A DNA stretch of 64,000 nucleotides from Armatimonadota bacterium (GTDB lineage Bacteria; Armatimonadota; Zipacnadia; Zipacnadales; JABUFB01), in contig JABUFB010000001.1 of NCBI GenBank assembly GCA_013314775.1, positions 310,001-374,000 on the forward strand, written 5' to 3'. The first letter of the stretch is position 1; the number at the start of each line of letters is the position of its first letter. A model generated the notes under the pieces. It ran no database searches and had not been told where the DNA came from. It worked only from the letters and a program-made list of their open reading frames with translations. The position numbers and the translations under genes are program-made. This document shows positions 25,092 to 43,770 of the stretch, piece by piece.

Positions 25092-25589
25092 GATAGCCGG
25101 CGCGGTGAGCAGAATCGGCAAGAGGTATACGTGACGGGACGGCGAAACCCTTGGCAGTGGCGGCGGTCTTACTTTACAGAAGCCGAGTGTGGTGGGCGTG
25201 TGGTGATAGCGTCGGGGCGGCACAGGGTCCTGGGAAGCTCTGACAACGGTGTGCTCTGGAGCGTCGGGCGACTGGCTCGGCGGTTTGCTTGCCATATTTT
25301 CGAACGCTGTGCTATAATCGCCGCGTCTTCAGCTTTGAACGAAGGCGCGTCGGAACAAGGGAAGGCGCCGAACGTTCCTACAGGGGTATGCGCTCTCCCA
25401 AGAGAGCTGCGATCGCGTACCGGGGCGCGCGTAAGCGTGACAACGTGTACGCGCTCGTTTGCGTGTAGGGCGCGCCCTCGCCCGGGGTAGCAGTCGGACA
25501 ATGGGGGCCGGGGAGCGACTGCAGGCACCGTCGCAGCAGCAGGCACGCGCGTCAGGTCGTCACCGCAGTAGGTGTCATAGGGAGTGATC
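25092..25589. other. Intergenic region with promoter and about 270-base leader
   Basis: The first part shows nothing recognisable. A strong promoter sits at 25289-25318; from there to the next start codon is a leader of about 265 bases with several potential hairpins (for example GCTCTC 25392-25397 with GAGAGC 25402-25407). I could not match it to a known riboswitch class. Confidence 0.6.
25289..25318 (+). promoter_or_regulatory. Promoter of the surface-protein locus
   Basis: TTGCCA (25289-25294), 18-base spacer, TATAAT (25313-25318), with the extended -10 block TGTGCTATAAT from 25308. Confidence 0.75.
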
Positions 25590-28500
25590 GTGTTGCGCAA
25601 GGGCCACGCCCTGTCCTCGGGCATCGGACTTTTGATAGCGCTGGCCGTCTTCGCCGCTTTGGCTGGGGCCTATGAGGCCGCAGCCGCACCGTTCCCTCCC
25701 GTGGGTGGAGCGTCGACTGCCCACTACGACGATTTCGGTCGCGTGAGCCACCACCGGTACATCGGGCACACGCTTCCGCCCCTGCCCCGGGCCATTAGCA
25801 CCGCTCAGACCGGCGGGCCCAACCCGGACGTCAACCTCACCCTCAATGCCACCGGCAGCCAGGAACTTCAGCCTGCCGGCGTTCCCAACAACAACCTGAA
25901 CCGGGTGGCCTTCGCCTCCAACGGCGTAGATGAGGATGCCGACGGGCGCATCGACGACACGCTTCCTGCTGATGCGAACTACGACATCTGGATCATGCGT
26001 CCGGATGGGTCGGAGCAGTTCCGCGTCACCAATCTGCCGGGCGACCAGATCGAGCCCGCCTATCACCCCGGGTCCAATGTCATTGCGTTCGCCGGCAACC
26101 AGACCGGGCGCTGGGAGATCTACACGGTCCAGCTCGTAACCGGGGTCGTGCAGTGTCTCACGGACAAGCAGCCCGGACGGAAGATGCACCCGACCTTCAA
26201 CCCTGACGGCAACTGGATCGCCTACCAGTGCTGGATCGACAGCGCTGCGAACTGGGACATCTATAAGATGCCGGCCAACGGCTCCCTGCCCCAGCAGCAG
26301 CTCACCACCTCCAACAACGACGACACTGATCCTGCCTGGAACCCGGTGGGCAATCCGCTCAGCCCTGCGGGGAATGCCATCCTGTACACGGCCAAGTCTG
26401 GCACGCTCAGCACCATCAACTGGGTGGACGCGGAGACCGGGGACGTCGAAACCATCTCAGCCGGCGGCATCTCCAGCGACAAGGAACCGGCATGGAGTTG
26501 GGACGGCCAGCGCATCGCCTTCGCCAGCAACCGTCTTTCCGAAGGCGACACGCTGCCTGACTGGAATATCTGGTCTATGTTCGCCATCGGCGAGCTCAGT
26601 GGCCCCGAAGCGGTTCTCATCTCCAACACCAACGTTGCGGACACCACCGACGACACGAACCCCACCTGGACGGCGGCTCTGGAGCGCCAGCCGGTTCGGA
26701 TCGTCTACGAATCCAAGCGCAATGACGGGGTCGGCGCAGAGCCGGACATCTGGGCCACGTTCTCCACGGATACCGAAGCCCCCATCCTGCGGGACCTGCC
26801 CTGGGTGAACCGCGGCACCGACAACATGACGCGCATCCGCCAGTTCTCGCCGGGCGACGATGTCTACTTCCACGTGCCGGTCTACGATGCCGGAAGCGGA
26901 GTGGGCCGGGTCTTCGTGACCATCAAGGACCCGGACCTGAAGCAATGGGTGATTGACTACTGGTCGGGCAGCCAGAGCTGGGACAGCGGCTTCGAGGGAT
27001 ACCAGTATCTGGAGTATGACTACTACCCGATCGCCAGCGTGGAGTTGTTCGACGACGGCGACCCGGCCAACGGAGACCTCACCGCCGGCGATGGGGTCTT
27101 CAGCGGCGTGTGGAGTATCCCCGCCAGTCTGGCCAGCGATTTCGTGATCGATGTCCTCGCCATTGACGCCAGCGCAGCTGCGAACGGCCAGAACTACGAC
27201 AGCATCTACGGTTTCACGAGCCTGGTGTTCAGCCCCAAGGGGAATATCCTTTTCGTCAACGACTACTGCGAAGGCCAGAAGTTCATCTGGGAGATGGGCT
27301 TCAATAATGACGCAGGCTCCCAGTGGTACACCGAGAGCTTCTACACCTTCAATCCTGGCTACTCCCCGAATGCGACGAACCAGTCGACGACCGAGGCCTA
27401 CAGCGTCACGAAGGATACCATCAAGACCTACGCTGCCGGTTGGGGAGTGGATGAGGAGTACTCCATCTGGCGCATCATCTGTCGCGGCCCCATTCCTCAG
27501 GGCGTATATCAGTACTACCTGCCCACGGTTGAGCAGCAGCTTGATCCGGTGGAGGCCGCCGATCCCCAGCGAGCGCCCAACGCCGCTCCCACACGGACCG
27601 TGCCTGTTGCCGAACGCGGCATTTTCTGGGCCTGCCCCCACGCGGGCAACCTGTGGGTCGCCGACGGATCCCTCATCGATGCGGGGACCCAGGCGGACTT
27701 GGACCTGTTCCTGGAGCGAAGCGGCCGCCTGTTCGTTTCCGGCAGCGACATTGCCTGGGCGCTGACCCTCAACGGAACGGTTGCTAACGACTTCCTAACC
27801 AACACGCTCAAAGCAACTTTCGTGAGCGATACCTATCTGGGCAACTACTGGATGTACTATACGCCGGTGGGTGCCAACCGCAGTCGGTCGCAGCGCGTTG
27901 ACCTGGACTGGGCGGTGGTCGGCAGTAGCAGTGACCCGGTGACCTTCGACCCGTGGGCAGGCACGTCGGCCGGCCCCTGGTCCCATTACCACTCACTGGC
28001 GCAACCCGCCGTCTACGACTCGGATGACATGCCCGACAGTCTGACCACGCCGTCAAACTGGGGCGATCAGACGCCTACCTCTCATGATGCTCATCCATAC
28101 TCCTGGCGACCGGACGTAATCCAGGCGGGTCCGGACGCGGTCAAGCTCTACGGTTACGGTGGCGCGGAGGGGCCTACGGCCGGCCTGAGATACCAGGACC
28201 CGATTAGCGGCGGCAGGCTTGTCTTCCTGTCCTTTGGCTTCGAGTCCATCCACCGCGGCTACCACACTCCGTCCAATCTGCCAGCGCACTGCAAGAACCA
28301 TCGGGCGACGCTGTTTCACAATGCCTTCTGTTGGATGCGCACCGGCAGCTTCCAAGGCAAGGTCGTGGATGTAGCAGGAAGCAAGCCGATTACCGATCCG
28401 AACCCAATCGTGCTGCTGTGGCGGGGCAACCACAACCCCGGCGATCGCACCACCGCGCCGGACTACGCGGTGCGCTGCCAGGACGACGGAACGTGGGTTA

Positions 28501-30836
28501 TCTCGGGCATTCCTCCGGGCTTCTACAGCATGGAAGCCACCCGTCCGGGCTACGACATAGACCACTATGACGGCTATGTGGTCCACGGTGGGTGGGAGCC
28601 GTTCATCGTTGACTTCGCGATCACGCGGGCCCGGCCCGGCGTCGTGACCGGCACCGTGACCTCCGAGGCCAATGACGAGACACTGGCTCTCGTGGATGTG
28701 ACCGTCTACGAGATCCCGGTTGAGGAAGATGAAGATGAGGGCGGCACGGCAGGAACCACCCAGACGAAGGGCGACGAGCCAGACTGGGATGCCCTGCAGC
28801 CGGTGACCATAAACGGCAAGGTCAAGACGATCAAGACCGGCGTGGACGGAACCTACAAGATCGAGGACCTTCCTCCCGGCCGGTACTACATCCGTGCTGA
28901 CGGGACAGGGATCGGTTACGGCGACGACTGGGCGGAGATCCTGATCACTGCTGGAAACACCACCACGCAGGACTTCGAACTGCCTGCAGCCGACGGCACT
29001 CTCGAGGTTACCGTGGTTGACGATGCGGACGACACACCCATCGCCAACGCCAGCGTCCAGGTGCGCACCCAGGCGGGCGTGCGGGTGCAGACCGGCACTA
29101 CCGACGCCACCGGGGTGGCCACCTTCAGTCTGCAGCCGGGGAATTACCTGCTGCGTGTGGCAGCCGCCGGTTACGGACAGGCCGATGGCGAACCGGCCCT
29201 GGTCCAGTCCATCACCACGTCGGAGGTCACCGTGCGCCTGACCGCCGAGGCTGGTGCGCGCGCCCTGTCCGGGAAGATCGTCTCGGCCACAAGTGGGGCT
29301 CCCGTAGGCAACATCCTTGTCAGCCTGCTGGTGAACGACGTGGTTGTTGCTACTACCCGCACGCTGGCCGCTTTCGTTGATCCGGCGGGCGACGACCCGG
29401 AGTACAACTACATCTTCGATCAGGATGTTCCGACCGGCGAAGTTGTGGTCAGGCCGTCGCCGGTTGGCTTCACCGCAAGCCCCACTGAGCGCACGGTCAC
29501 GGTCGCCAGTGGCGCGCTTGTCCCGAACGTGAACTTCACTCTCAACAGCCTCTACGTCTTCCCGCGGGGCCTGCAATTGGTCAGCGCTCCCTACGACTAC
29601 GAGGGCATCGACGCGGCGACTCTCCTCAATGTGGCTCCCGGCGACCTGAAGTTTGCTGCCTGGGAGGCCTCACGACAGCGCTATCGGATCTACCCGCTCG
29701 CCCCTGCGGACCAGTTCCGCCTGGGTACGGGTTACTGGCTGCGCCTGGATAGCGCGACGGATGTTACCACGCCCGGAACTCCTGCGCCGGACCCGACGGA
29801 GATTCCGTTGGAGACGGGGTGGAACATCATCGGTGACCCGTCGACGCGACTCATCGACCTGTATACCGTGATGGTGCGTGATCAGGCCGGGGTGACCGTC
29901 ACCATGCAGGCCGCCCTGACCGAGGGCTCCGTGGACGGCGGCATGTTCGCTTACGTACTCGGCGGCTACCAGACCACGGCGATACTGAACCCGTGGGTGG
30001 GGGCTTGGATCAAGGCCAACAAACCGGTCACACTGATTGTTAGCGAGTCCGCGGGGGCGCTGTCAGCCGAGACCGCGGCGACAAAGGCTGCCATCCGCCA
30101 GCCCGAGGACGGTTGGTTGGCGTCCATCGAAACCTACGTGGATGGCCTGCAGGACCGCTCTGCGCTGTTCGGGCAGGCGGCATCTGCCTCCGCCGGGCAC
30201 GATGCCGGGCTCGACATGAGCAAACCGCCTGCGGCTGATCTGGGCCCGTATGTCTACACAAGCTTCGTCGGTGCCACCGGGGGCTCCTATGCCGTGGACG
30301 TGCGGTCGGCACAGGCCGAAGATAGCCGCTGGACCATGAAGGTCGCGACGAGCCAGACGGGTTCCAGCGTGACACTCCGCTGGCCGGACTTGAGTGCGGT
30401 GCCCGCCGAGGTCCGCCCTGTACTGACCGATCTCGCCACGGGGAAGAGCGTGTACATGCGGACTGCTCCCAGCTACACTTTCGTTGCTGGCGACGCGCCG
30501 CGCGAGTTCGAGATCACCGTAGGCCCGGCAACCGGGGCCCCGCTGACAGTCAGCGGAGTTTCGGCTCAGCAAGCCCGCGGTGGTGTAAGCCAAATCGCCT
30601 ACACCCTCTCGAGCGCTGCAGACGTGGACGTTGAAATTCTGAACGTAGCCGGTCGGCTGGTGAAGCGGGTCTTGGCAGGCGAGAGCCAGGCGGCGGGCGC
30701 GAATACAGCGTTGTGGACCGGTGTGAGCGAAGCTGGTACTCGTGTTCCGCGAGGACGGTACCTTGTTCGAATCACCGCCCGCACCGACGATGGGCGACAG
30801 GCCAACGCGGTTCAGGCCTTCAGTGTCGTGCGCTAG
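25590..30836 (+). CDS. Giant secreted protein: beta-propeller, carboxypeptidase-regulatory-like repeats, FlgD-type Ig C-terminus
   Basis: A 1748-residue exported protein. Signal peptide at about 10-38; TolB/PD40-type propeller blades at about 90-400 (units such as DIWIMRPDGSEQFRVTNLPG and GRWEIYTVQLVTGVVQCLT); a middle region of unknown fold; then CarboxypepD_reg/Cna-B-like repeats at about 910-1310 (GTVTSEANDETLALVDVTVY, GKIVSATSGAPVGNILVSL). The last 450 residues form a module shared with two downstream proteins, ending in VDVEILNVAGRLVKRVL and GTRVPRGRYLVRITARTDDG, a FlgD-type Ig-like domain. GTG at 25590 was chosen because GGGAG is 5 bases upstream; GTG 25584 is an alternative. Likely surface-exposed; function unknown. 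Confidence 0.7.
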   Translation: MLRKGHALSSGIGLLIALAVFAALAGAYEAAAAPFPPVGGASTAHYDDFGRVSHHRYIGHTLPPLPRAISTAQTGGPNPDVNLTLNATGSQELQPAGVPNNNLNRVAFASNGVDEDADGRIDDTLPADANYDIWIMRPDGSEQFRVTNLPGDQIEPAYHPGSNVIAFAGNQTGRWEIYTVQLVTGVVQCLTDKQPGRKMHPTFNPDGNWIAYQCWIDSAANWDIYKMPANGSLPQQQLTTSNNDDTDPAWNPVGNPLSPAGNAILYTAKSGTLSTINWVDAETGDVETISAGGISSDKEPAWSWDGQRIAFASNRLSEGDTLPDWNIWSMFAIGELSGPEAVLISNTNVADTTDDTNPTWTAALERQPVRIVYESKRNDGVGAEPDIWATFSTDTEAPILRDLPWVNRGTDNMTRIRQFSPGDDVYFHVPVYDAGSGVGRVFVTIKDPDLKQWVIDYWSGSQSWDSGFEGYQYLEYDYYPIASVELFDDGDPANGDLTAGDGVFSGVWSIPASLASDFVIDVLAIDASAAANGQNYDSIYGFTSLVFSPKGNILFVNDYCEGQKFIWEMGFNNDAGSQWYTESFYTFNPGYSPNATNQSTTEAYSVTKDTIKTYAAGWGVDEEYSIWRIICRGPIPQGVYQYYLPTVEQQLDPVEAADPQRAPNAAPTRTVPVAERGIFWACPHAGNLWVADGSLIDAGTQADLDLFLERSGRLFVSGSDIAWALTLNGTVANDFLTNTLKATFVSDTYLGNYWMYYTPVGANRSRSQRVDLDWAVVGSSSDPVTFDPWAGTSAGPWSHYHSLAQPAVYDSDDMPDSLTTPSNWGDQTPTSHDAHPYSWRPDVIQAGPDAVKLYGYGGAEGPTAGLRYQDPISGGRLVFLSFGFESIHRGYHTPSNLPAHCKNHRATLFHNAFCWMRTGSFQGKVVDVAGSKPITDPNPIVLLWRGNHNPGDRTTAPDYAVRCQDDGTWVISGIPPGFYSMEATRPGYDIDHYDGYVVHGGWEPFIVDFAITRARPGVVTGTVTSEANDETLALVDVTVYEIPVEEDEDEGGTAGTTQTKGDEPDWDALQPVTINGKVKTIKTGVDGTYKIEDLPPGRYYIRADGTGIGYGDDWAEILITAGNTTTQDFELPAADGTLEVTVVDDADDTPIANASVQVRTQAGVRVQTGTTDATGVATFSLQPGNYLLRVAAAGYGQADGEPALVQSITTSEVTVRLTAEAGARALSGKIVSATSGAPVGNILVSLLVNDVVVATTRTLAAFVDPAGDDPEYNYIFDQDVPTGEVVVRPSPVGFTASPTERTVTVASGALVPNVNFTLNSLYVFPRGLQLVSAPYDYEGIDAATLLNVAPGDLKFAAWEASRQRYRIYPLAPADQFRLGTGYWLRLDSATDVTTPGTPAPDPTEIPLETGWNIIGDPSTRLIDLYTVMVRDQAGVTVTMQAALTEGSVDGGMFAYVLGGYQTTAILNPWVGAWIKANKPVTLIVSESAGALSAETAATKAAIRQPEDGWLASIETYVDGLQDRSALFGQAASASAGHDAGLDMSKPPAADLGPYVYTSFVGATGGSYAVDVRSAQAEDSRWTMKVATSQTGSSVTLRWPDLSAVPAEVRPVLTDLATGKSVYMRTAPSYTFVAGDAPREFEITVGPATGAPLTVSGVSAQQARGGVSQIAYTLSSAADVDVEILNVAGRLVKRVLAGESQAAGANTALWTGVSEAGTRVPRGRYLVRITARTDDGRQANAVQAFSVVR

Positions 30837-30947
30837 CAGCTCAGCCCGACCGGCTGGTCGGCGGCCTGCGGCCGCCAGCCCCGGTAACGGTCGGGGATCG
30901 AGGCTTTCACAGGGGCTTCCGAGCGCTTCGGCGGCCCCTGCGCAGAG

Positions 30948-30977
30948 TTTACAAAGCGAAAACTTGTGTGCTATACT
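30948..30977 (+). promoter_or_regulatory. Promoter before the first CsgG/FlgT-like gene
   Basis: TTTACA (30948-30953), 18-base spacer, TATACT (30972-30977), with the extended -10 block TGTGCTATACT from 30967. A 7-bp GC hairpin (30860-30876) upstream could end the previous transcript. Confidence 0.7.
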
Positions 30978-31032
30978 GCGGGGCCGTTGCCCCGGCTATA
31001 AGCGGAACACGCCTGGGAGGGAACCGACCGTC

Positions 31033-32943
31033 ATGAGGCGATTGCACCATTGCATCGTAACCGGCCCCGTAGCTCCTGTCCTCACCCTACTGCTGGTGCT
31101 GGCCCTCGGGTTCACTGACACTCCCGCAGCGCATGCCCAGAAGATCAGCCAGGCCATTTCCGTTGCGGTTGTGCCTTTCGCGAACCGCTCCGGGAACCCT
31201 AGCCTGCTGATCTCCGATAAGGCCACTGACGCTGTGGCTCTGGCGCTCGATGACTCCCAGGAGTACGTGGTCACCACGCGCGCAGACACCCGTCGCGAGA
31301 TGGAATCCCTCGGCATTCTGCGATCCGAGACCGGCCGTCATTCGGTATCCACCGAGCAGATGGTCCGTCTTGGGGAACGACTCCGTGTGGAGAAAGTCGC
31401 GTCCGGTTCTGTGGACGCACTGTCCATCCAGAAGAATGGGCAGTGTCGTGTTCGCTTGACCCTCACCCTCCTGGACATTGCCACCCAGGAGTTCCTGGAA
31501 GGCGCGACTGCCGACTATACCACGCGCCCGATCCCCGGCTGGACGGGCGACGAAGCCAGTGCCATGAACGAGGCCCTGCGCTCGGCTGCGGAGGAGTGCG
31601 TCCGCAAGATCCAGACCACGCGCACACCACGCGGTAATGTGGATATGGTTGACAATTCCGGCGCCATCATCGTGAACCTCGGTGCCCGCGACGGTATCGA
31701 AGTCGGCATGCAACTGCTGGTAGTGCGTGGCGTGTGGAATGCCGGCATTGAGAAAGTCGTTCTGCAAAAGATCGGCGTGATCGAGGTCAGTCGGGTCGAG
31801 GTGAATGACTGCGTCTGCCGCAGTGTGAGTGGCAGCCTGCCTCGCACGGCCGACAAGGTATACGTGATGTATCGTCCCTCCGAGCGGGTTGCTATGCAAG
31901 CCCGCCAGGCCAAGACGAAACAGATGAGCCGGGTGCTCATTGCCCTCGGCCTTGGTCTGGGCATCTACGCCGTCGCGACCGGGGATGACAACCAGAGCGC
32001 TCCCGGAGTCACCGCGTTCCTGAGCCAATCCGCGCCGGGCGCCGAGCCCCGCATTCGGGTTGAGGCCAATGCAGGGACATTCCCCGGGTCGGCAAAGACC
32101 CATGCATGGCTCGTGTACCGGGGCAGCTGGGCCGGATTCCCGCCCCTGGTGGATGATCGCAACTTCCTGGTTGCCGCGGTGCCCGGTTCGAAGCTATCGA
32201 ATTTCGAGGACGACCCCAGTTTCCAGGCCGGCCTCGAGTTCGAGTTGACCTTCCAGTATTTCGATAGGGCCGGCGACGAGGAGGATGGGGACGTCAGCAT
32301 CACCTACAACCACCTTCCGCTGACCGCTGGGCAGACCTACTTCTACAAGCTGCGACGTATCGTCGACCCCGGGTTCGTCGAGATCCCGATCGCCGATACC
32401 ACACAGGCTGCGGATGAGCTGGAAGACGTTGATTTCGAGATCGATCCGCCTCAGTCGCTGGGCGACGCGAGCAGCCCTGCCGGGCCCATCACCTTCTTCT
32501 ATCCGCCTCAGCTGGAGACGCCATCGAACGGCAACCAGACCGTTGACCCGCGCAGTGGGCGGACCACATTCCGGTGGACCCCATCGGTTGGGGCCGATCA
32601 GTACAAGGTCCTGATCTTCACCAACCCGCAGGCGACGGGCACCGCAGTGAAGGAGAGCCCCGTCCTCAACTCCACCGGCTCGACCACGACGATGAACTGG
32701 GTGCTCAACATGGACCTTCAAGGGGCCACCGAGTACTACTGGTTCGTGGCTGCTCGCCGCAGTGGGGAGACTCCCGCCCGGGTACGCAGCAACGGCTTCA
32801 CGGGCTGGCTGCTGAGCGAGCCCTTCCGGTTCACGACAGCGGTCCTTCCGCCTTCCGGGCCGTCGAGCTCTGTTGACGGCGGCAAGCCGCGTCCCACCGA
32901 CCGCGGCGGGATATTTGGCGAGATGCCGACCCGCCCGAAGTAG
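31033..32943 (+). CDS. CsgG/FlgT-like protein with membrane helix and Fn3-like domains
   Basis: A 636-residue exported protein. After the signal peptide (cleavage near AAHAQ) comes a CsgG/LpoB-like domain: SVAVVPFANRSGNPSLLIS, then EKVASGSVDALSIQKNGQ and VRLTLTLLDIATQEFLEGA. A FlgT-like strand set follows (SGAIIVNLGARDGIEVGMQL). Near residue 300 there is a hydrophobic segment (VLIALGLGLGIYAVATGDD), then one or two Fn3-like domains (for example TTFRWTPSVGADQYKVLIF). CsgG-type domains build outer-membrane export pores or oligomeric scaffolds. The start at 31033 has GGGAGGGA upstream. The gene at 40569 has the same architecture in smaller form. Confidence 0.65.
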   Translation: MRRLHHCIVTGPVAPVLTLLLVLALGFTDTPAAHAQKISQAISVAVVPFANRSGNPSLLISDKATDAVALALDDSQEYVVTTRADTRREMESLGILRSETGRHSVSTEQMVRLGERLRVEKVASGSVDALSIQKNGQCRVRLTLTLLDIATQEFLEGATADYTTRPIPGWTGDEASAMNEALRSAAEECVRKIQTTRTPRGNVDMVDNSGAIIVNLGARDGIEVGMQLLVVRGVWNAGIEKVVLQKIGVIEVSRVEVNDCVCRSVSGSLPRTADKVYVMYRPSERVAMQARQAKTKQMSRVLIALGLGLGIYAVATGDDNQSAPGVTAFLSQSAPGAEPRIRVEANAGTFPGSAKTHAWLVYRGSWAGFPPLVDDRNFLVAAVPGSKLSNFEDDPSFQAGLEFELTFQYFDRAGDEEDGDVSITYNHLPLTAGQTYFYKLRRIVDPGFVEIPIADTTQAADELEDVDFEIDPPQSLGDASSPAGPITFFYPPQLETPSNGNQTVDPRSGRTTFRWTPSVGADQYKVLIFTNPQATGTAVKESPVLNSTGSTTTMNWVLNMDLQGATEYYWFVAARRSGETPARVRSNGFTGWLLSEPFRFTTAVLPPSGPSSSVDGGKPRPTDRGGIFGEMPTRPK

Positions 32944-32958
32944 TCTGTGAGGGCCGCA

Positions 32959-34122
32959 ATGCCGTACGCGCTCCTTTTCTTTCTGGTGTTGATGGCATGC
33001 TGCCCGGTCTGCGCCCGGGATTGGGCCCTGGTGGCGTACCTGGATGGACGAGGGGACCTTGGCGCAGACGCCGTTGAGCACGCTGGGGGCATGCTGCGTC
33101 TGCCGGGAGCGAATCCGGTACACGTGGCTGTCAGCGGTGCGGGTGGCGGAATCTGGTCTCGGGAAAACGGCCGGGTGACGCGGTTCCCCGGCGGTGCGCC
33201 GCAGGCTCCAATCTCGTCTGAGCGAGGACTGTCTGATTTCCTCGAGTGGGTTCGGCCGAGAACGCAGGGGTACAACCGTCTGGTGTGCCTCCTGGGACAC
33301 GGAGCCCCCGCAGCGGCAGGCGCAGGAACGGCCCCGTTTCGGTTGCTGCACGCCGATGACGACCCGGGGATAACGCCGGACCAGTTGGCAGAGTGCTTGC
33401 GCGGGCATCTCGGCAGCGAGCCGGACACTACGACGGTCGTGGTCCTTGAGACTTGCTTCAGTGCATCGGCGGATTCGATCTACGCATTGCGCGACGTGGC
33501 CGACTTTGTCCTCGTCGCCCCGGGCGAAGTGCCGAGTCCTGGGCTTCCGTGGCCGTCGACGGCGCTGGCCGTCATTGCTGCGGCTTCCGGGGATCGTAAT
33601 ACTTCGCTGTCAGAGGACCTTTCGCGTGGCGCGGAACAGAGATGGATGCGCTCCTGGACTCTGCTCTGGGTACAGCCGGGAAGGTTCGAGAGCGTTGTCG
33701 ATGCGCTGCAGAGCTTCTGCGAGGCAGCAGAGCGAAGCCCTGAAACCTGTGCTGCGAGCCTGCTGCGACTTCGCGCGAGCACCTCGGCAATGCTGGAACG
33801 CCGGGAAATGGTCGAACTCGCAAGACTAGCCAGGACAGTCGGGAATGAGCAGCCGGGAACGATCCTCTTCGACCGAGGACAGGCTCTCGCGACGGCAGCG
33901 GAACAGGCAGCAGTCCAGCACGTCGTGCTTGGGCCCGCAGGGGCGGATAGCAGGGGCCACCCGTGTGGGATAACGGTATACCTGCCCGGAGCGCTGGGAT
34001 GCGGCCACGCAGACCTGGGATCGTGGAGTTCCCTTGCAAAGCGCACTGGCTACGATCGGTTGATTGAGTTCTATGTCCAGTACTGCGGCCGTTTGGTGCC
34101 CGGCTTGGGACCGACAGCCTGA
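32959..34122 (+). CDS. Secreted clan-CD cysteine peptidase (clostripain/C11-like)
   Basis: A 387-residue protein with a signal peptide or lipoprotein-like leader (MPYALLFFLVLMACCPVCAR). The domain starts WALVAYLDGRGDL, the first caspase-fold strand of C11 peptidases. The catalytic dyad is inferred as His114 in VCLLGHGAP and Cys166 in VVVLETCFSAS; both sit at strand ends as in clostripain, gingipain and caspases. The ATG at 32959 has GAGGG 5 bases upstream (a GTG at 32947 is possible). It is 15 bases after the CsgG/FlgT-like gene. It could mature or sort its neighbours as PorU does in type IX secretion; that is a hypothesis. It lacks the shared C-terminal module. Confidence 0.65.
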   Translation: MPYALLFFLVLMACCPVCARDWALVAYLDGRGDLGADAVEHAGGMLRLPGANPVHVAVSGAGGGIWSRENGRVTRFPGGAPQAPISSERGLSDFLEWVRPRTQGYNRLVCLLGHGAPAAAGAGTAPFRLLHADDDPGITPDQLAECLRGHLGSEPDTTTVVVLETCFSASADSIYALRDVADFVLVAPGEVPSPGLPWPSTALAVIAAASGDRNTSLSEDLSRGAEQRWMRSWTLLWVQPGRFESVVDALQSFCEAAERSPETCAASLLRLRASTSAMLERREMVELARLARTVGNEQPGTILFDRGQALATAAEQAAVQHVVLGPAGADSRGHPCGITVYLPGALGCGHADLGSWSSLAKRTGYDRLIEFYVQYCGRLVPGLGPTA

Positions 34123-34213
34123 CGCTACGCAGGACGGCCGGGAGACCTCGGTGCGAAAAGCGCTGAGGGTCCGCGGAACTGGCGCGTCGGACTGCCAGAA
34201 GGAGGCAACAAAG

Positions 34214-37200
34214 GTGAGACGTTTCGGCCAGGAACGCAGTGCTCATCGCTCCCCTGTGGCCAGCCTCATCATTCTGGCGGGGCTCATCGCCACGTCGGCG
34301 TTCGCATCAGCGGCGCCTGCCGGGTGGGATGACCTGGCCGGGCCTCTGCGGGCACTCACGTCCGCAGGTAGTGCCCTGCAACAGGTGGAGGTGACCTTCC
34401 GATCGCCACAGGATGCGGCGTGCACCGACCTCTCGGCTCTGGGCGCGATCGTTGAATACCGGCGTGACTGCCGAGCGCAGTGCCTGGTGCCTGCGCGCAA
34501 CCTTCTTGCTCTGGCGGCGCTGCCACAGGTGGCTCAAGTCAGTGAGCCGGCGCGTCCCATCACCTGTCAAGGCTTCGGCGCCGTGGTAAGCGAGGCAGTC
34601 CAGTTCACCAACGCATCGGCCATGCAGATGTCGGGCTTCTCCGGAGCACCTGCAACCATCGCGATCATCGACATCGGCTTCAACGGTATCGCCGCGGCCG
34701 AGATACCTGCGGGCTACGAACTGGTCTCGCTTCGAAGCGACCAATCGACGACTGCGAGCAATCACGGCACCGCGATGGCTGAGACGGTCGCCGACATGGC
34801 CCCTGGCGCGAACCTGCTGCTGGTCGCGGTGGACACTCCCCTGTCGATTGAGGCCGCTGCTGATTTCGTGGCAGGACGCGGTGTTGAGATCGCCGTGTCA
34901 GGTCTTGTCGTGGTCGAGGGGCCGTTCGACGGCACCCATCCTCTGTCACGCGCGGTGAACAGTGCGGACGCGAGTGGTCTGCTATGGGTGCAGGCCGCCG
35001 GGAACCTCGCTCGCCGCCACTGGTCGGGTGAGTATACCGACGACGATGGCGACGGGATACACGAGTACGATAAGAACGTCGAGGGGATATCGTTGGCCCT
35101 CAACAGCGGGACCTTCGACGCCTACCTGAGCTGGTATCAGACTGCAGGCACGAAGACCAGCCAGGACTATGATCTCGTTCTCGTGGACGGCCAGGGAAAC
35201 GTCGTGGCGCAGTCATCGATCACTCAAAATGGTGATGACCACCCGCGCGAGCGCCTGCATGCTACAGTGGTGGCCGGAACCTACAACCTGCAGATAAGAG
35301 CGGTGTCCATCGACGAGAGCATCACGGACACATTCCAGCTCTTCATCCCCGACGTGGACATCTCACCGGATACCCTCCAGGTTGCCGAGGGAAGCCTGCC
35401 CGTTCCCGCAGAAGCAACGGGAGCCTTCACGGTAGGCGCCGTGCGCGGAACAACAATTGACCCGGCCCCTTACAACCTGACTGCTGTCGCGCTGGATAAC
35501 ATCGAGCCCTTCAGTTCGCGAGGCCCCACGGTGACTGGCGCGATGAAGCCCAATATGGTCGCGCCTGACGCCTGCCGCACAAGCCTTGCCGCGGTCGGAG
35601 CAACGCCGATCAGTGCGGGAGGCGAGTTCATCGCCCCCAACGCGTTCGGCACGTCCTTCGCCGCTGCTCATGTAGCAGGAGCGCTTGCACTGCTGTGGAG
35701 CGAGGACACCACACGGTCCAAGATAGAGTTGCGCGACGCGATCCTTCGACTCGCGGTAGACGTTCCGCCACCTCTGCCCCCGGCAGAGCCGCTCCCTAAT
35801 AACACCTACGGTGAGGGCCGCCTGAATCTGCGCGTCGGAACTGACGTGGCGAAACCGGTGTGTCAGATCACCTACCCGCGCAGCGGGGAAACGATCAGCA
35901 CTACTGAGCCCGTCATAACCGCGTTTCTGAGCGACGTCGGTAGCGGCGTCAAGCCTGCGACCATCGTGCTCACAGTCGACGGCGAGATAATCAACCCCTC
36001 CGACATCGTGTTTGATGCGGCCACAGGACTCTTGACATACAGGGTTGGGCCGCCCTCTCACGCGCCGCTTAGCCGCAGTAGCCATCGGATCACCCTCGAC
36101 TGTCAGGATTTTCAAGGGAACGTCGCCGAGCAGGCCGTGAGCAGTTTCCGCGTCTCGCCGCCCCAGGTGGACGCGGGGCTGCACATGATCTCTCTCCCCT
36201 TCGCGGACCTCGCGCCAAACACGAAGACGCCGAGTGCCATTTTCGGACTTCCTCCCGACCAGGTCATCGTCGTCCGGTGGGTTCCCACCGACGCGACTGT
36301 CGGCGACAAGTACCACTGGTGGGGTGGCCCTGCCCAAATCGAGGACCAGTTCGCCAGCTTCGAGCCTCTGGATGCACTGGAACCGCCGTACGTCGTGTCT
36401 GACCCGCCTGCCGGCCTCGGGTACTTCCTGAGCATACCGACCTCCGCCATCCTGAATGTCTCTGGCCGGAGCCTGGCCGATCAGGTGAGCTATGACGTGA
36501 AGCTGTCCGTCGGTTCGACGCCCCCGCGAGGGTGGAACATGATCGGGTGTCCGTTCCCAGACGCAGTCACCTGGGGCGGAGTGGAGTTCATCACGAACGG
36601 CGTGCGCCAGGACCTGCGCGAAGCCATCGACTCGGGGGTAACGGAGGGCATCCTGTTTGCTCTGAAGAAGGCTGGCGCTTCCTATTACTACGACTTCCCC
36701 GCCGATCCCCTCTCGGGTTCGGTAGCGCCCTTCCAGGGCTACTGGCTGCATGTTCTGAAGGACACCACGCTCCGGCTCTACAATGGCGTGATCACCGGCG
36801 CATCGAAGGCGCCCAAGGCGGAAAAGCCGACGCCCTCTGTTGATAACTGGGTGCTGAAGTTCGGCGCATCCGCGGCGGGGGGCCAGGATCCGACGAATTA
36901 CATCGGTGTCTCCACCGCTGCGACTGACGGGTACGATGCCGGCACCGACGTGCCCGAGCCGCCAGCCGTGTCGAGCCCGGTCCGGGTCTTCATGGCCAGG
37001 CACGAATGGGGGACCGCTGCGGGCCAGTACGTGAAGGACGTGCGCGGCGCGGTGGGGACTTCACAAGTCTGGGACGTCACGGTGGAGTGTGCCCAGGCCG
37101 ACACCGACGTGACGCTGAGCTGGCCCGAGATCAACGCCCAGGTCCCGGCCGGGGTGACCTTGGTCCTCACCGACCTCGATGCCGGACGTGATGTGTTCAT

Positions 37201-37585
37201 GCGGACGGTCACCGGTTACACGTACAGGTCCTCGTCCGCGAACAGCAGTCGTCGCTTCGAGATCACGGCAACGCCAAGTGCCGATCGTGTGTTGACCATG
37301 AGCAATGTGCAGGCGCAGCAGGCGCCCGGGGGAACGGTGACCCTGGCGTACACGGTGAATGTCGCCGCGGACGTCGAGGCCGAGATACTCAATATCGCGG
37401 GGCGGACCATCAACCGCCTTGGTTCTCGGCCCGCGACTGCCGGCGCAGTCCAGACCCTGACCTGGAATGGCCGGAACATCCAGGGCTCCCGCGTGCCGCC
37501 GGGCCGCTACATGGTCCGGCTCACCGCTCGCACCGAAGACGGTCAGGCCGTGAACGCGGTCCGCACCTTCCAGGTGACACGCTGA
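34214..37585 (+). CDS. Secreted subtilisin-like (S8) serine peptidase with shared FlgD-type Ig C-terminus
   Basis: A 1123-residue exported protein. The signal peptide covers about residues 12-35. The S8 catalytic residues are Asp153 (AIIDIGFNG), His184 (SNHGTAMAE) and Ser481 (FGTSFAAAHVAG), with VQAAGN supplying the oxyanion Asn. The domain is spread over about 330 residues with a long insertion between Asn and Ser that looks like a beta-sandwich pre-peptidase domain (TFDAYLSWYQ to YNLQIRAVSID). From about residue 640 the protein follows the same C-terminal plan as the genes at 25590 and 37598, ending VEAEILNIAGRTINRL and VPPGRYMVRLTARTEDG. The GTG start at 34214 has GGAGG 8 bases upstream; the frame is open back to 34064 over the previous gene. 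Confidence 0.85.
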   Translation: MRRFGQERSAHRSPVASLIILAGLIATSAFASAAPAGWDDLAGPLRALTSAGSALQQVEVTFRSPQDAACTDLSALGAIVEYRRDCRAQCLVPARNLLALAALPQVAQVSEPARPITCQGFGAVVSEAVQFTNASAMQMSGFSGAPATIAIIDIGFNGIAAAEIPAGYELVSLRSDQSTTASNHGTAMAETVADMAPGANLLLVAVDTPLSIEAAADFVAGRGVEIAVSGLVVVEGPFDGTHPLSRAVNSADASGLLWVQAAGNLARRHWSGEYTDDDGDGIHEYDKNVEGISLALNSGTFDAYLSWYQTAGTKTSQDYDLVLVDGQGNVVAQSSITQNGDDHPRERLHATVVAGTYNLQIRAVSIDESITDTFQLFIPDVDISPDTLQVAEGSLPVPAEATGAFTVGAVRGTTIDPAPYNLTAVALDNIEPFSSRGPTVTGAMKPNMVAPDACRTSLAAVGATPISAGGEFIAPNAFGTSFAAAHVAGALALLWSEDTTRSKIELRDAILRLAVDVPPPLPPAEPLPNNTYGEGRLNLRVGTDVAKPVCQITYPRSGETISTTEPVITAFLSDVGSGVKPATIVLTVDGEIINPSDIVFDAATGLLTYRVGPPSHAPLSRSSHRITLDCQDFQGNVAEQAVSSFRVSPPQVDAGLHMISLPFADLAPNTKTPSAIFGLPPDQVIVVRWVPTDATVGDKYHWWGGPAQIEDQFASFEPLDALEPPYVVSDPPAGLGYFLSIPTSAILNVSGRSLADQVSYDVKLSVGSTPPRGWNMIGCPFPDAVTWGGVEFITNGVRQDLREAIDSGVTEGILFALKKAGASYYYDFPADPLSGSVAPFQGYWLHVLKDTTLRLYNGVITGASKAPKAEKPTPSVDNWVLKFGASAAGGQDPTNYIGVSTAATDGYDAGTDVPEPPAVSSPVRVFMARHEWGTAAGQYVKDVRGAVGTSQVWDVTVECAQADTDVTLSWPEINAQVPAGVTLVLTDLDAGRDVFMRTVTGYTYRSSSANSSRRFEITATPSADRVLTMSNVQAQQAPGGTVTLAYTVNVAADVEAEILNIAGRTINRLGSRPATAGAVQTLTWNGRNIQGSRVPPGRYMVRLTARTEDGQAVNAVRTFQVTR

Positions 37586-37597
37586 GACTGAGGCTCT

Positions 37598-40492
37598 ATG
37601 GATTACCGACGATCCAGAACGACAAGCGATATCGTCACGACACGCCTGCGGCGGCCGGCGAGAGGAGCTGACCCACTCGTGCACCAAAGTCACGGCGCAC
37701 TCGCCACTTTGACGGGGCGTGCCTGTTTCGGTCTGGGCCTGTTGCTGTTGACCATCGTGGTGGCGTCCCCGGTCGCTGCACAGAGGAACGTCGTGGAGGT
37801 CACCCACCCCGGTGGCCTCATGACAATCCAGGTCGAGGACGCGACTACCTTCAGCACGGTCCGCGTGACCAACAACGTGCCGCGGTATTACCAGTGGCAG
37901 CGCCCCGGCGGTCGATTCCGTCTGCTGACTGGCTCGCGTACCCCCACCGGAGGCGATCCGACGCGCACAGGAGACGAGAGCCGAGCGATCGCCAGCAAGA
38001 TCGAGGCGGGGATTGCCGGTCCGGCGACCGACCTTCCTTCCTATGACCGGTTCACGTCGAAGGTAACCATCGCGGTGGACGGAGAGTACTACGACATTCA
38101 CGCTCTCGGGGCCGCCGAAGACGACCGCGAAGGTGCGGCTGCCAACTACTGGCCCGTGCCCCCTCAAGCCAGTACGCGAGACATCTACGGCGTCGCGCGC
38201 ATCCCGCTGGATGATGACGACCCCAATGCCGCGACGGAGTTTCTGGTAATTGAGCACCGTTGGACCCTGATCCACGACGCGGTGCGTCTCGAGTACATTG
38301 TTCGCAACAACTCCGGTGAGGCGCACACCGTTGGCCTTCGCACCCTCATCGACGCCTCCTTCGGCCAATGGGACCGCGACGGCGGCGTAATCGTGCTTCC
38401 CACTGGCGAGCGGATCGTGACCGAACGCACCATCCCGGATGCAAACACAACGGTCGTGCCCGCTGTCTGGACAGCCTTCGACCGGATTGATGATCCGACC
38501 GTCAAGGTGCGCGGTACGCTGGCGAGCAGCGATGTCTTCAGCCCCGGTACGGCGAATTCCGCCGCGGGCATGCCCGACCAGATCTCCTTTGGCCTTTACC
38601 GTAGTCTGGGCAACGACGCCCAGTGGGACTTCATCCCGAACGAAGCCTTGAGTCTTGAGGGCGAGGACTGGGCATACGCTGCGCGATGGGACGAGCGTGA
38701 TCTGGCCGCTGGCCGCTCCCGCCGGTACGTGACCTACTACGGCCTGGGGGCCGCCTCTGTCGACTACGAAGCGCCGTACGCACTCGCAGCCTACTGCCCT
38801 AGCCGCCTGTCGGTGCAGGCCGGCGACGACCCCAGCACAGCGGCGGTGGAACGCTACTATTTGACGGACGCCGATGGAAACAGCCCATTTACGGTCTATG
38901 CCTATGCCGACAATTTCAGCACCGCACCCCTGGTCGATGCGAGTGTTCGCATCAGTCTGCCTGACGGCTTCGAGCTGGATCCGTCCACGCAGTCGTTGAG
39001 CAAGTCCTTGGGCACCGTGGCGCGGAACGAGCTGAAGCGCGTGTCGTGGACAGTGCGGGCATCGGTGGCAAGACCCGGTGTGGGGACTGTGAAGTTCACC
39101 GGTCCGAACGGCAAGACGGTCGAGTGCGACGTGACCATTCCGGTTATCCCCGCGCTCACGCCGATGACATCCCTCAGGGGCATCGAGATGATCTCGATCC
39201 CCTATGAGTTCACTGACACCAGCGTGGAGCACGTCTTCCAGGACCTTGGCTCGATGCATGTGGGTGGGCCCAATGGTCTGGCTCGATGGAGCCCCGAGGA
39301 ACAGCTCTACCGATGGTTCCCTCACGCATCGGTGAGCAACATCATCCCAGGCCTGGGTTACTGGTTCCTCAACCTGAACCGTAAGACGGTGTTCTTCCCG
39401 GATGATCTCCAGGAAGTGAACACCGATTGGGAGTACTCGGTGAACCTCCCGGCCGGGTGGAACCAGATAGGCTCGCCATACGCGTTGATGACCAACCTCG
39501 CCGGCGTTCGGGTCATTGATAGCAGCGGCTCGGAGTGGTCTATGCAGGAGGCTGTGGCCCGGCGCCTGGTTATGGGTACGCTCTACTCATATGACGCGGA
39601 AGACAATGAGTATGAGTGGGAAACTGAACTCGCCGACGTAACGATGACACCTTTCATGGGTTACTGGCTGTACGCCTACGAGGACATCACACTTCTGTTC
39701 GGCCCCGAAGCCCTCTATACCCAGTCAGTGAATGAAACCACGGTTACGAGGGCACCGGGAGACTGGAAGGTGAATATCTCGGTCGCCGCAGCCGGGCGCG
39801 TGCGCACCCGATCCATCGGCATGGCCGCCGACGCCAGCGATGGCGTCGACCAGTCAGACGTCGTGGCCCCGCCGGCTGCGCTTCCCGACGGGGTGGTTCT
39901 CACCGCTCAGTTCGCGGACCCACAGACCGGGGCAGGCTTCATGGAGGACATCCGGAGCGCGGGAAGCGACCGGCAGACATGGGACCTGACTGTCACAACC
40001 AATGCCGCCGATCAACCAGTGACTATCACCTGGCCCGACCTCAGCAACTTGCCGGCGCAGTTCGCGGCGTACTTTGAGGATCCTGTAACCGGTCAGCGCC
40101 GTTACATGCGCACCACAACCAGTTACCAGTACCGCACAGGAGCAGGCGGGGGAACCCGTCAGTTCAGGATCGTGGTCCAGCCGATGACGGCGAGGAATAC
40201 CCTGGTACAGTCGGCATCGGCCGCGGCATCATCCGGCGGCGTGTCTTTCGCATACACGTTGAGCTCGGACGCCGATGTTGACATTGAAGTGCGCAACATT
40301 TCGGGCGTCGTTGTACGCCGGGTCGCCACGAGCAGGCCCTCGACAGCGGGTGTCAACACTCTGGCCTGGGACGGGCGCAATGAGCACGGAGCCAAGGTGC
40401 CGTCAGGTCGGTACCTGTTCTCGGTCACCGCGCGATCGCCAGAGAGTGGCGAGCAGCACAGTGTTGTACGTTCCTTCCAGCTCTCACGCTAG
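37598..40492 (+). CDS. Secreted protein of unknown function with shared FlgD-type Ig C-terminus
   Basis: A 964-residue exported protein. The N-terminal 500 residues (starting after RNVVEVTHPGGLMTIQVED) form a beta-rich domain I do not recognise. Near residue 480 an Ig-like strand pattern begins, and from about residue 525 the shared module follows: GIEMISIPYEF, LPAGWNQIGSPY, WDLTVTTNAADQPVTITWPD and the FlgD-type end VDIEVRNISGVVVRRVA, VPSGRYLFSVTARS. The ATG at 37598 puts 45 residues before the hydrophobic leader; a GTG at 37679 with GAGGAG upstream gives a more normal signal peptide. It lies 12 bases after the subtilisin gene. Confidence 0.65.
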   Translation: MDYRRSRTTSDIVTTRLRRPARGADPLVHQSHGALATLTGRACFGLGLLLLTIVVASPVAAQRNVVEVTHPGGLMTIQVEDATTFSTVRVTNNVPRYYQWQRPGGRFRLLTGSRTPTGGDPTRTGDESRAIASKIEAGIAGPATDLPSYDRFTSKVTIAVDGEYYDIHALGAAEDDREGAAANYWPVPPQASTRDIYGVARIPLDDDDPNAATEFLVIEHRWTLIHDAVRLEYIVRNNSGEAHTVGLRTLIDASFGQWDRDGGVIVLPTGERIVTERTIPDANTTVVPAVWTAFDRIDDPTVKVRGTLASSDVFSPGTANSAAGMPDQISFGLYRSLGNDAQWDFIPNEALSLEGEDWAYAARWDERDLAAGRSRRYVTYYGLGAASVDYEAPYALAAYCPSRLSVQAGDDPSTAAVERYYLTDADGNSPFTVYAYADNFSTAPLVDASVRISLPDGFELDPSTQSLSKSLGTVARNELKRVSWTVRASVARPGVGTVKFTGPNGKTVECDVTIPVIPALTPMTSLRGIEMISIPYEFTDTSVEHVFQDLGSMHVGGPNGLARWSPEEQLYRWFPHASVSNIIPGLGYWFLNLNRKTVFFPDDLQEVNTDWEYSVNLPAGWNQIGSPYALMTNLAGVRVIDSSGSEWSMQEAVARRLVMGTLYSYDAEDNEYEWETELADVTMTPFMGYWLYAYEDITLLFGPEALYTQSVNETTVTRAPGDWKVNISVAAAGRVRTRSIGMAADASDGVDQSDVVAPPAALPDGVVLTAQFADPQTGAGFMEDIRSAGSDRQTWDLTVTTNAADQPVTITWPDLSNLPAQFAAYFEDPVTGQRRYMRTTTSYQYRTGAGGGTRQFRIVVQPMTARNTLVQSASAAASSGGVSFAYTLSSDADVDIEVRNISGVVVRRVATSRPSTAGVNTLAWDGRNEHGAKVPSGRYLFSVTARSPESGEQHSVVRSFQLSR

Positions 40493-40568: not shown

Positions 40569-41648
40569 ATGACCTCTATTCGAACCAGCTGGTGGGGGCG
40601 CCACATTAGCTACGCCCTGCTGGCAACCATGGTGCTGGGCCTCACCCCGCTGTGCGCCGGCACGGCCGCTGCACAGGGACACAATCGCACTGTGCTACTG
40701 TTTGCCGTCTCCGATGAGAGCGCAAGCGGCCTGCCCGAACTCAGGAAGGTTGCCACCGACTCTCTGCAGATGGCCATAGACCAGTTGCCGCAGCTTGAGT
40801 GCACTGAGTTCTCGCGCACGTCCCCCCTCGTGCGAAGGGCCGCTGCGGAAGGTCGAGTGCTGCCCACGCAGCTGGAGCTTGGGCCGTCCAGTCCGCGAGA
40901 CGCGGTCGCTATTGGCCACGCGCTGAATGTGGACACTGTGGTGCTTGCGAGTATCCAGTCTTACCGCAGCACCCAGCAGCCCCGAGCCGTCGAGGTCATC
41001 ATCTCGGGCCAGGCCTATGACGTGAAGCCCAACTACGACGAGGAAGCGGGCGACCCCGTTGCCAAACCGCAGGTTGCCCAGGCATTCGGCGTGGTAGGCA
41101 CGAGCCGCAAGCTCCCCGGTTACCAGGGCAGCGACCGCCCTCTTGCACGAGAGGCCCTCGACGAGGCCGCATACCGCGTAGCCCGGGTGCTGAGCGGCGC
41201 CACTATCAGCGAAGTCGCCAAGCCCACCCCCAAGGCGGCCAAGAAGAGTAATGGCACCAAGATCCTGGCCTATCTGGCCGCGGTCGGTCTCCTGGCCTAC
41301 CTGGTGAGCGAGTCTGGCGGCGACGACGCTGCCGGGCCCAGTCCCGACGCCGTGCCTCCCACCGTCCTTCCGCTGCAGGTCGAGGGGACGGACACGATCC
41401 GGCTGCGCTGGCAAGAGCCCACGGGCACCTCATTCACCGTGCTGCGCTATCAGATTCAGCGCCGAGTAAACAATGGTGAATGGTCCTTCTTCGGTTCCGG
41501 CGGCTCCAGTGCCGATGTAAGCCGCACCGCCACCGAATACCCTGACTTCGGCGTGAGCACAGGGAACTCCTATTCATACCGGATGCGCGTCATTTACACG
41601 AACCAGAAGGTCTCCGAGTGGGTAATGTTCCAGGGGATCTCTCTGTGA
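40569..41648 (+). CDS. Second CsgG-like protein with membrane helix and Fn3 domain
   Basis: A 359-residue exported protein. Signal peptide ends near GTAAAQ; the next 180 residues have a CsgG-like pattern (RTVLLFAVSDESASGLPELR, then IGHALNVDTVVLASIQSYR). A Lys/Pro linker leads to a hydrophobic stretch (ILAYLAAVGLLAYLVSESGGDD), followed by an Fn3 domain (LPLQVEGTDTIRLRWQEPTG to SWVMF-like end). This is the arrangement of the protein at 31033: CsgG-like domain, hydrophobic segment ending in GDD, Fn3. The ATG has GGGGGAAAGGG upstream. Confidence 0.6.
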   Translation: MTSIRTSWWGRHISYALLATMVLGLTPLCAGTAAAQGHNRTVLLFAVSDESASGLPELRKVATDSLQMAIDQLPQLECTEFSRTSPLVRRAAAEGRVLPTQLELGPSSPRDAVAIGHALNVDTVVLASIQSYRSTQQPRAVEVIISGQAYDVKPNYDEEAGDPVAKPQVAQAFGVVGTSRKLPGYQGSDRPLAREALDEAAYRVARVLSGATISEVAKPTPKAAKKSNGTKILAYLAAVGLLAYLVSESGGDDAAGPSPDAVPPTVLPLQVEGTDTIRLRWQEPTGTSFTVLRYQIQRRVNNGEWSFFGSGGSSADVSRTATEYPDFGVSTGNSYSYRMRVIYTNQKVSEWVMFQGISL

Positions 41649-41793: not shown

Positions 41794-43770
41794 ATGGCAA
41801 CCCACCCTGACGCTAAATTGGTCCGGATCTCGGTGATCCTGTGCGGCTTGCTTACATGGCTGATCTCCGGCCAATCTGCTGCCCAGGACATCCGCCAGGG
41901 GACCGTCCGCATCACTCTCAGCCCTAACCCTGTCACCCTCCCCGCAGACGGCAAGAGCCGCTCACGCATCCTCATTGAGGTGCGCGACCGCAACGAGCAA
42001 CCTCTCCCAGATGGGACGCCGGTGTTCGTTTTCGTGGACAACGGTCTCGTGGAAACCGGCGATGCCGACCGGAGGCAGTCCCTCACGGCCACAACACAGG
42101 GCGGGTATACCACGGTCTACTGCACAAGCGAGACACCGGGGGTCGCCACTGTCACGGTGCGGGTGCAGGACACCCGCCAGCGCGCTCTTCTGACGTTCCT
42201 GCCCAAGGGCGAGAGCCCGAAAGCCCAGCCTCGCGTGGTTCACGTGCGCGGCAAGTGGGTCGGCTACTGCCTGGATCTAAACACCATCAGGGCCCGCGAC
42301 GGTGCGCGTGCGACAATAGGCAACATGATCTTCGACGCTGCAGACGGCCTGGAGCTGGACATTGAAGCGAACACGTTGCGGGGCTGGTCGGTGCGGATCC
42401 GCCGGGGCGAAGAGACACTTGAGGGCGAAGATTTCTTCTATGAGATTGGCACCGGGAGGGGTGTGATCCGGCGTTTTGGAGAACTCGGGGTGGAGCGTAC
42501 TTTCTTCTCCTGCTACAGCCTGACCGGCCAAACTGCCGAGTGGGAACTGCCAGACGATGTCTTTCGGCGCGATGACCGCGAGGGCGTCAACTGGATGATC
42601 TGCGAGAGTTGCCAGTACCATCTGCACCAAAAGGTCGTCGTGAAGAAGGCGGCCTTCTACGCGCAGACCCAGAAGGTGTTCAGCTTCCCCCCGTACTGGG
42701 TAATCGGGCTTCCCGGCTACAGCGGCTCCAGCAACACCCAGGTGGTGGGCGTGAGCACTGATGGCGGTCTCGCCGTTGACTTCCCCTTCTTCTACCGGGT
42801 GAGCGACAACTGGGCGGGAGCGGTGAAGATCCAGCGCGGGGCCTCCGGCACCAGCTTCATGGCCCGCGATGGTTGGAGCCTCGCCGTCGAAGAAGAGTAT
42901 CAGACCTGCACTACTCGCGGGAGTATCGAGGCGAGCGGGATATTCACGAGTGACTGGGGCGTGGAGTGGCGCGATGAACGCACGGTGTTCGGGAGCGATC
43001 AAGCGTTCTTCAACGTGGCGTGGCCCGACCATGAAAGCATTTTCGCGGACGCCAGCCTCTATCACTACTCGGACAAGTATCGCTTCAACCTCCGCGGCCA
43101 GTATGACGACCCGGCGGCCGCCGAGAAGGCCTACCGCGTGACTGGCGACTGGTTGACTGAACCTCAGCGTCTCACAGGGAACTCGCGCTACCGTCTGGGG
43201 GCGTCGGTCGGAGGGCGCCTGTACAAACAGCGGGATGACGACTGGGTTCTGGAAAACGAGCTATACGCCTCCGTTGAGCTGGACCCCTGGAGAATCGGTT
43301 CGCGCACTCGCATCCGCCCGACCTTTAGCGACACCTTCTCGTGGGACACCGGGGAGTTCTCGCAGAACATCGCGCGCGCCCAGCTCCGCCTGAACCACCA
43401 GTTCGGCTCGGCTGCATGGCTGGGGCTCAACTACCAACTGAGTTACCACAATGGCGACAGTACCCGCAAGGGCGCCAACAGCATGGTCGGCCTGGACTTC
43501 AACCTGACCCACGACTGTCTGTGGAACCTGTACCTCAATGGCACGTGGGATGTGAATGAATCGGACACCTACGGGTATATCGGCTGGGATTGGTTCTTCA
43601 AACCGGCGTGGCGGTTCGGAATCGTCGGCACCCACTACGGATATGGTGAGGAAGACTACAACGACCTCGAGTTCGAATTGGGCCGAGCCATCGGTACGCG
43701 CGAGATCGGCCTGCGGTATTCGCTCAAAGAGGACCGGCTGTCCCTGGAGTTTGGGAGTTTCGGTCTGTAA
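41794..43770 (+). CDS. Big_1 Ig domain plus LptD/OstA-like outer-membrane barrel protein
   Basis: A 658-residue exported protein. After the signal peptide (cleavage near SAAQD) comes one Big_1 invasin/intimin-like domain (RITLSPNPVTLPADGKSRSR, then VRDRNEQPLPDGTPVFVFVD, GVATVTVRVQD). Then an OstA/LptD-like region (ATIGNMIFDAADGLELDIEA; YAQTQKVFSFPPYWVIGLPG) leads into about 350 residues of alternating aromatic strands ending EDRLSLEFGSFGL, typical of a transmembrane beta-barrel. A lipopolysaccharide-transport or protein-export role is inferred. No good ribosome site precedes the ATG. It ends the surface-protein locus. Confidence 0.65.
   Translation: MATHPDAKLVRISVILCGLLTWLISGQSAAQDIRQGTVRITLSPNPVTLPADGKSRSRILIEVRDRNEQPLPDGTPVFVFVDNGLVETGDADRRQSLTATTQGGYTTVYCTSETPGVATVTVRVQDTRQRALLTFLPKGESPKAQPRVVHVRGKWVGYCLDLNTIRARDGARATIGNMIFDAADGLELDIEANTLRGWSVRIRRGEETLEGEDFFYEIGTGRGVIRRFGELGVERTFFSCYSLTGQTAEWELPDDVFRRDDREGVNWMICESCQYHLHQKVVVKKAAFYAQTQKVFSFPPYWVIGLPGYSGSSNTQVVGVSTDGGLAVDFPFFYRVSDNWAGAVKIQRGASGTSFMARDGWSLAVEEEYQTCTTRGSIEASGIFTSDWGVEWRDERTVFGSDQAFFNVAWPDHESIFADASLYHYSDKYRFNLRGQYDDPAAAEKAYRVTGDWLTEPQRLTGNSRYRLGASVGGRLYKQRDDDWVLENELYASVELDPWRIGSRTRIRPTFSDTFSWDTGEFSQNIARAQLRLNHQFGSAAWLGLNYQLSYHNGDSTRKGANSMVGLDFNLTHDCLWNLYLNGTWDVNESDTYGYIGWDWFFKPAWRFGIVGTHYGYGEEDYNDLEFELGRAIGTREIGLRYSLKEDRLSLEFGSFGL

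Follow-up and report, generated by a model that had tools for sequence, protein, structure and literature searches.

Introduction

PorU, PorZ and RgpB carry the T9SS type A CTD (TIGR04183, Por_Secre_tail). Secretion of RgpB requires the C-terminal end of its CTD and the β3-β4 loop with its glycine, and T9SS genes have been stated to be absent outside the FCB phyla (PMC11285876). In Poribacteria, proteins with TIGR04183 domains were described without Por secretion genes, and the route of their secretion was left open (PMC3909097). The other domain relevant here is the Ig-like domain of FlgD (PF13860, FlgD_ig); a search of the available literature retrieved no paper joining Armatimonadota with FlgD. 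Here we describe a C-terminal tail that is carried by unrelated, putatively exported proteins of Armatimonadota and whose last domain appears to be a T9SS-like sorting signal, occurring phylum-wide although searches did not recover the known T9SS machine. The underlying observation was confirmed, and its interpretation as a signal was supported in part, for the terminal domain only.

Results

The window, that is, the whole stretch of 64,000 nucleotides of Armatimonadota DNA that was analysed, encodes three tail-bearing proteins on its plus strand. TAIL1 (25584..30836) is a predicted exported protein of 1750 aa with TolB/PD40 beta-propeller and carboxypeptidase-regulatory-like domains, TAIL2 (34214..37585) is a subtilase (S8), and TAIL3 (37598..40492) is a predicted exported protein whose N-terminal fold is unassigned. 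BLASTP aligned these proteins in their C-terminal parts alone (residues 1328–1750 of TAIL1, 704–1123 of TAIL2 and 527–964 of TAIL3; 33–35% identity, E 1e-45 to 1e-51) and gave no mutual alignment of their N-terminal parts, bearing out the preliminary description of three reading frames with a common C-terminal module on unlike N-termini. The motifs listed there, GWN(I/M/Q)IG, VTxxWP, MRT, GR and VPxGRY, were all recovered in a multiple alignment of the three tails. The module was shorter than the 450–500 residues first proposed, at around 430, and composite, consisting of a GWN/GYW region, a WPDL domain of around 150 residues (named after VTxxWPDL...MRT) and a final Ig-like domain of 96 residues, referred to below as the CTD. 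The GWN/GYW region occupies 29559..30104, 36170..36841 and 39173..39757 in TAIL1, TAIL2 and TAIL3, respectively, and homology between its two halves is weak (24 columns, 89.5%). It is followed by the WPDL domain (30105..30542, 36842..37291 and 39758..40195) and by the CTD, at 30543..30833, 37292..37582 and 40196..40489, with the ends FSVVR, FQVTR and FQLSR. Elsewhere in the window, an exported Pro/Ala-rich protein with repeated NPW motifs is encoded at 19402-20520 on the minus strand, and a 1135-aa open reading frame at 53314-56721 has a terminal F5/8 type C (carbohydrate-binding) domain.

While the count of three carriers holds for the window, a profile search of the whole genome retrieved 11 tail proteins. 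In a search with a single protein, the nearest named relative, 89% identical across the query, was an Armatimonadetes metagenome-assembled genome. Among the different passengers of the 11 tails, four are S8 peptidases, two are PD40 propeller proteins and one is a Big_5 protein, and an N-terminal hydrophobic stretch that may be a signal peptide is present in all 11. One of them, a tail-bearing subtilase encoded on the minus strand of contig C8 (L027:6572-10453), also has a dockerin-like domain whose PF00404 score narrowly exceeds the cut-off. With a profile built from the last ~255 residues of these 11 sequences, the WPDL and CTD part was detected in 254 of the 291 Armatimonadota genomes searched. 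Copy number ranged widely: one genome (G247) encodes 50 tail proteins, compared with one or two in each of the ~75 genomes of family f25, most of which have one.

The tail profile also matched 250 of 395 Bacteroidota genomes, in which representative proteins show the same GWN-WPDL-CTD order as in Armatimonadota. The 10 proteins of this order that were examined all end in a TIGR04183 domain scoring above cut-off, and the Armatimonadota CTDs align with these curated T9SS type A sorting domains within an equal architecture. Several Bacteroidota proteins have two WPDL copies, the first lying hundreds of residues before the end; an internal position was part of what the preliminary description had named as evidence against its own reading. 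Because WPDL thus occurs internally, a sorting function is assigned here to the CTD, with GWN and WPDL as accessory parts, and the whole ~430-residue module is ruled out as the signal.

The CTD, in contrast, was never found internally. Across all loci read it was terminal in 132 of 132 distinct Armatimonadota cases, most of them from loci fetched with the tail profile, which would pick up internal copies just as well; in the source genome it lies at the extreme C-terminus of all 11 tail proteins. The last residue is Arg in 119 of the 132 and Arg or Lys in 120, and the third from last is V, L or I in 110, giving a hydrophobic-x-Arg end. The CTD also has an N-x-x-G-R loop (N-I-A-G-R), with N and G invariant in the 11 tails of the source genome. 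Matched by eye, these two features are the counterparts of the motifs essential in the CTD of RgpB.

AlphaFold2, run on a five-sequence alignment, predicted a seven-strand sandwich for the CTD (strands at residues 156–248 of a 250-aa model, mostly at pLDDT ~88–93), the seven strands being those of the TAIL3 CTD. Since the alignments, drawn from sequences of the window and of related loci, are shallow, the GWN region and much of WPDL were modelled at low confidence, and the WPDL domain of TAIL3 at low to medium confidence. Foldseek matched the CTD to PorU, PorZ and FlgD as well as to other Ig-like folds, and a profile search of the PDB retrieved FlgD with E 4e-11 and, more weakly, the PorU CTD with E 5e-4. 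TIGR04183 matched all 11 tails of the source genome below cut-off (best E 9.5e-4; the three window tails score 13.6–18 bits, with the cut-off at 23), whereas PF13860 matched all 11 above its gathering cut-off; the tails scored higher as FlgD_ig than as T9SS CTD. The proteins as wholes are not FlgD, as FlgD equivalog models matched the Ig domain only, at no more than ~40 bits against cut-offs of 230–383. For the last ~95 residues, a role as a sorting or anchoring signal, which the preliminary description had proposed for the entire module, is well supported by terminal position, predicted fold and homology to T9SS sorting domains.

The three tail genes belong to a conserved cluster in the order TAIL1, a CsgG/FlgT-like protein, a C11 peptidase, TAIL2, TAIL3, an fn3 protein and an LptD-family barrel, followed by uvrB and uvrC; intergenic gaps in the window cluster are 3–145 bases. 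This order is kept within the class of the source genome and also in many families of the phylum, there without a detected C11 gene. The CsgG/FlgT-like gene (30982..32943, plus strand) encodes a predicted exported protein with fn3-like domains, for which the ortholog alignment gave weak matches to CsgG (two members), FlgT_C (one member) and fn3. Downstream of it, at 32947..34122 on the plus strand, lies a gene for a predicted exported cysteine peptidase, which was detected in the class of the source genome only. It matched a clostripain-related structure in the PDB (E 1.5e-17), and His118-Gly119 and Cys170 are invariant in eight orthologs, most of which are just 19–28% identical to the window protein. 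By sequence, the product qualifies as a C11 (clostripain, clan CD) peptidase with the clostripain fold and the His/Cys dyad. The fn3-domain gene (40569..41648, plus strand) likewise encodes a predicted exported protein, TolB-N-like by eye.

Searches for the T9SS machinery covered SprA, PorU and PorV. Neither the SprA nor the PorU model scored above cut-off in any of the 291 Armatimonadota genomes, and PorV_fam did so in one, while in the control genomes (three Flavobacteriales and one metagenome-assembled genome of candidate division FCPU426) SprA was detected above cut-off in four out of four. Judged by SprA, PorU and PorV at the sensitivity used, a canonical T9SS is not recognisable in Armatimonadota. 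With respect to machinery, the tail proteins thus fall short of what defines the T9SS, and they are not filed as T9SS cargo. As a separate observation, the SprA homolog of FCPU426 (L150, G294:C191:1-9500), a frame of 2194 aa that narrowly passes the cut-off with a summed score of 202.7 bits, lies outside the phyla usually listed for the T9SS. The source genome also encodes, on contig C12 (L230:5806-7578), a 591-aa frame for a C25-type cysteine peptidase that matches the catalytic region of PorU. This peptidase is without a tail and does not adjoin tail genes. Similar genes are patchy across the phylum, and with those examined not lying near tails, C25 peptidases were rejected as PorU.

A second conserved pair points to another kind of outer-membrane partner. 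In the source genome and four others of its order (L137, L139, L144 and L146), a tail gene lies directly downstream of a gene for a barrel of 1066–1246 aa with one SprA domain (C3:40689-44429 in the source genome). Between this barrel and SprA, hhalign gave ~93 common columns at a probability of 96.8% and no end-to-end alignment; with just one domain in common, full SprA identity was ruled out. The SprA-domain match, which has low sensitivity in the class of the source genome, was found in 186 of 254 tail carriers vs 9 of 37 tail-negative genomes (Fisher 1.4e-8, with phylogeny ignored) and, when f25 was excluded, in 118 of 179 carriers vs 1 of 27 genomes without tails. Outside that class, the barrel lies near tails in just a few loci. 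On these sequence data, we regard the shorter SprA-domain barrel as the leading candidate receptor or translocon.

The same barrel bears on whether Armatimonadota possess a true but highly divergent T9SS, with SprA, PorU and PorV homologs too distant for the models. Besides the shared SprA domain, such a reading could draw on a barrel member of one genome (G209) with two SprA regions in order, on a weak PorV_fam protein in the source genome and on the patchy C25 peptidases. We nevertheless consider it unlikely, given that the SprA model does reach the distant FCPU426 as well as the Flavobacteriales, that C25 and PorV matches have a patchy distribution, with the examined C25 genes lying away from tails, and that the candidate barrel is 850–1250 aa long vs 2200–2500 for SprA.

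The barrel at the end of the window cluster (41794..43770, plus strand) combines a Big_1/Invasin_D3 domain with an LptD-family outer-membrane barrel. Its profile matched the LptD structure 7omm in the PDB (E 5.6e-7) and gave no Pfam LptD match; the protein is possibly the LptD of Armatimonadota. It occurs in 283 of 291 genomes, including most of the tail-negative ones, and is therefore probably not dedicated to tails; as a dedicated translocon it is disfavoured. The usual presence of this barrel and of the CsgG/FlgT-like protein in the cluster would suit a tail that acts as a surface-anchoring or assembly module binding an envelope component (polysaccharide, LPS or an outer-membrane protein), with export by another route such as the T2SS. 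In the two f25 loci read, only the CsgG-like gene, TAIL3 and the barrel remain, as a unit in which the ortholog of TAIL3 is the single tail protein, and FlgD_ig domains, which all 11 tails contain, assemble into caps. This explanation is nonetheless a poor prospect, as a C-terminal position fixed to the last residue and a conserved basic end suggest a recognised terminus, the architecture is in common with T9SS cargo, and the LptD-like barrel is not tail-specific. Least credible of all is a reading in which the tail has no part in sorting, being an ordinary adhesive or structural array of Ig domains that is terminal only because of domain order: FlgD_ig is indeed widespread, with matches in controls that include E. 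coli and B. subtilis, and WPDL can be internal, but 0 of 132 CTDs are internal, the terminal Arg is conserved and the tails are collinear with TIGR04183 domains.

Discussion

We propose that the last ~95 residues of the tail are probably a C-terminal signal for outer-membrane export or sorting, of the T9SS type A kind, whose receptor is not a canonical T9SS. Sec would take the passengers, which have signal-peptide-like N-termini, across the inner membrane. At the outer membrane, the CTD, folded as an Ig-like domain and bearing a conserved basic end and the G-R loop, would then be recognised, and recognition would direct the passenger to the surface; we infer that the Armatimonadota CTD works in the manner of the T9SS CTD. 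GWN and WPDL would serve as accessory spacer domains, as in the T9SS cargo of Bacteroidota, the shorter outer-membrane barrel with one SprA domain may act as receptor or translocon, and processing of tail proteins could fall to the neighbouring C11 peptidase. Some results speak against this proposal: SprA and PorU did not score above cut-off in any genome of the phylum and PorV did so in one; f25 genomes mostly have a single tail, borne by the TAIL3 ortholog in the loci read, which a structural role fits equally; FlgD_ig scores above the T9SS CTD; the candidate barrel has only ~93 residues in common with SprA and lies near tails in few loci outside the class of the source genome; and the co-distribution of tail and barrel is confounded by phylogeny.

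A bolder extension of the signal reading, which we offer only tentatively, is that Armatimonadota have an outer-membrane export system of their own, with a T9SS-like C-terminal signal, a smaller SprA-domain translocon of 850–1250 aa and, in some lineages, a clan CD processing peptidase. If so, the signal would predate the known T9SS machine or be more widespread than it. A T9SS-like signal found phylum-wide without recognisable SprA or PorU means that evolution can separate signal from machine, or else that a diderm phylum distant from Bacteroidota has an export system not yet described. The tail also supplies a criterion by which surface proteins of this little-studied phylum can be predicted.

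Among known systems, the tail compares most closely with the T9SS type A CTD of PorU, PorZ and RgpB, with which it shares a terminal position, a predicted seven-strand Ig-like sandwich, a basic hydrophobic C-terminal end, an N-x-x-G-R loop and the GWN-WPDL-CTD order of Bacteroidota proteins. It differs in that the 11 tails of the source genome match TIGR04183 weakly and below cut-off, in that Armatimonadota tails end mostly in Arg whereas the Bacteroidota relatives read mostly have a final Lys or Arg, preceded by a KKM-type stretch, and in a phylum without SprA or PorU above cut-off and with PorV in one genome only. The likeness to the FlgD Ig-like domain lies in the PF13860 matches of all 11 tails and the fold match to FlgD structures; unlike in FlgD, the domain sits on large exported proteins whose N-terminal domains are different, and FlgD models cover the Ig domain only, far below their equivalog cut-offs. 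The barrel of the window cluster resembles LptD in its profile match to 7omm and departs from it in its N-terminal Big_1/Invasin D3 domain and the missing Pfam match. Finally, as in Poribacteria (PMC3909097), sorting-domain carriers occur in a phylum in which secretion genes were not found. Unlike that case, which was described from single-cell genomes, Armatimonadota offer 254 carriers among 291 genomes as well as conservation of the gene cluster, and their candidate barrel makes the question raised by Poribacteria testable.
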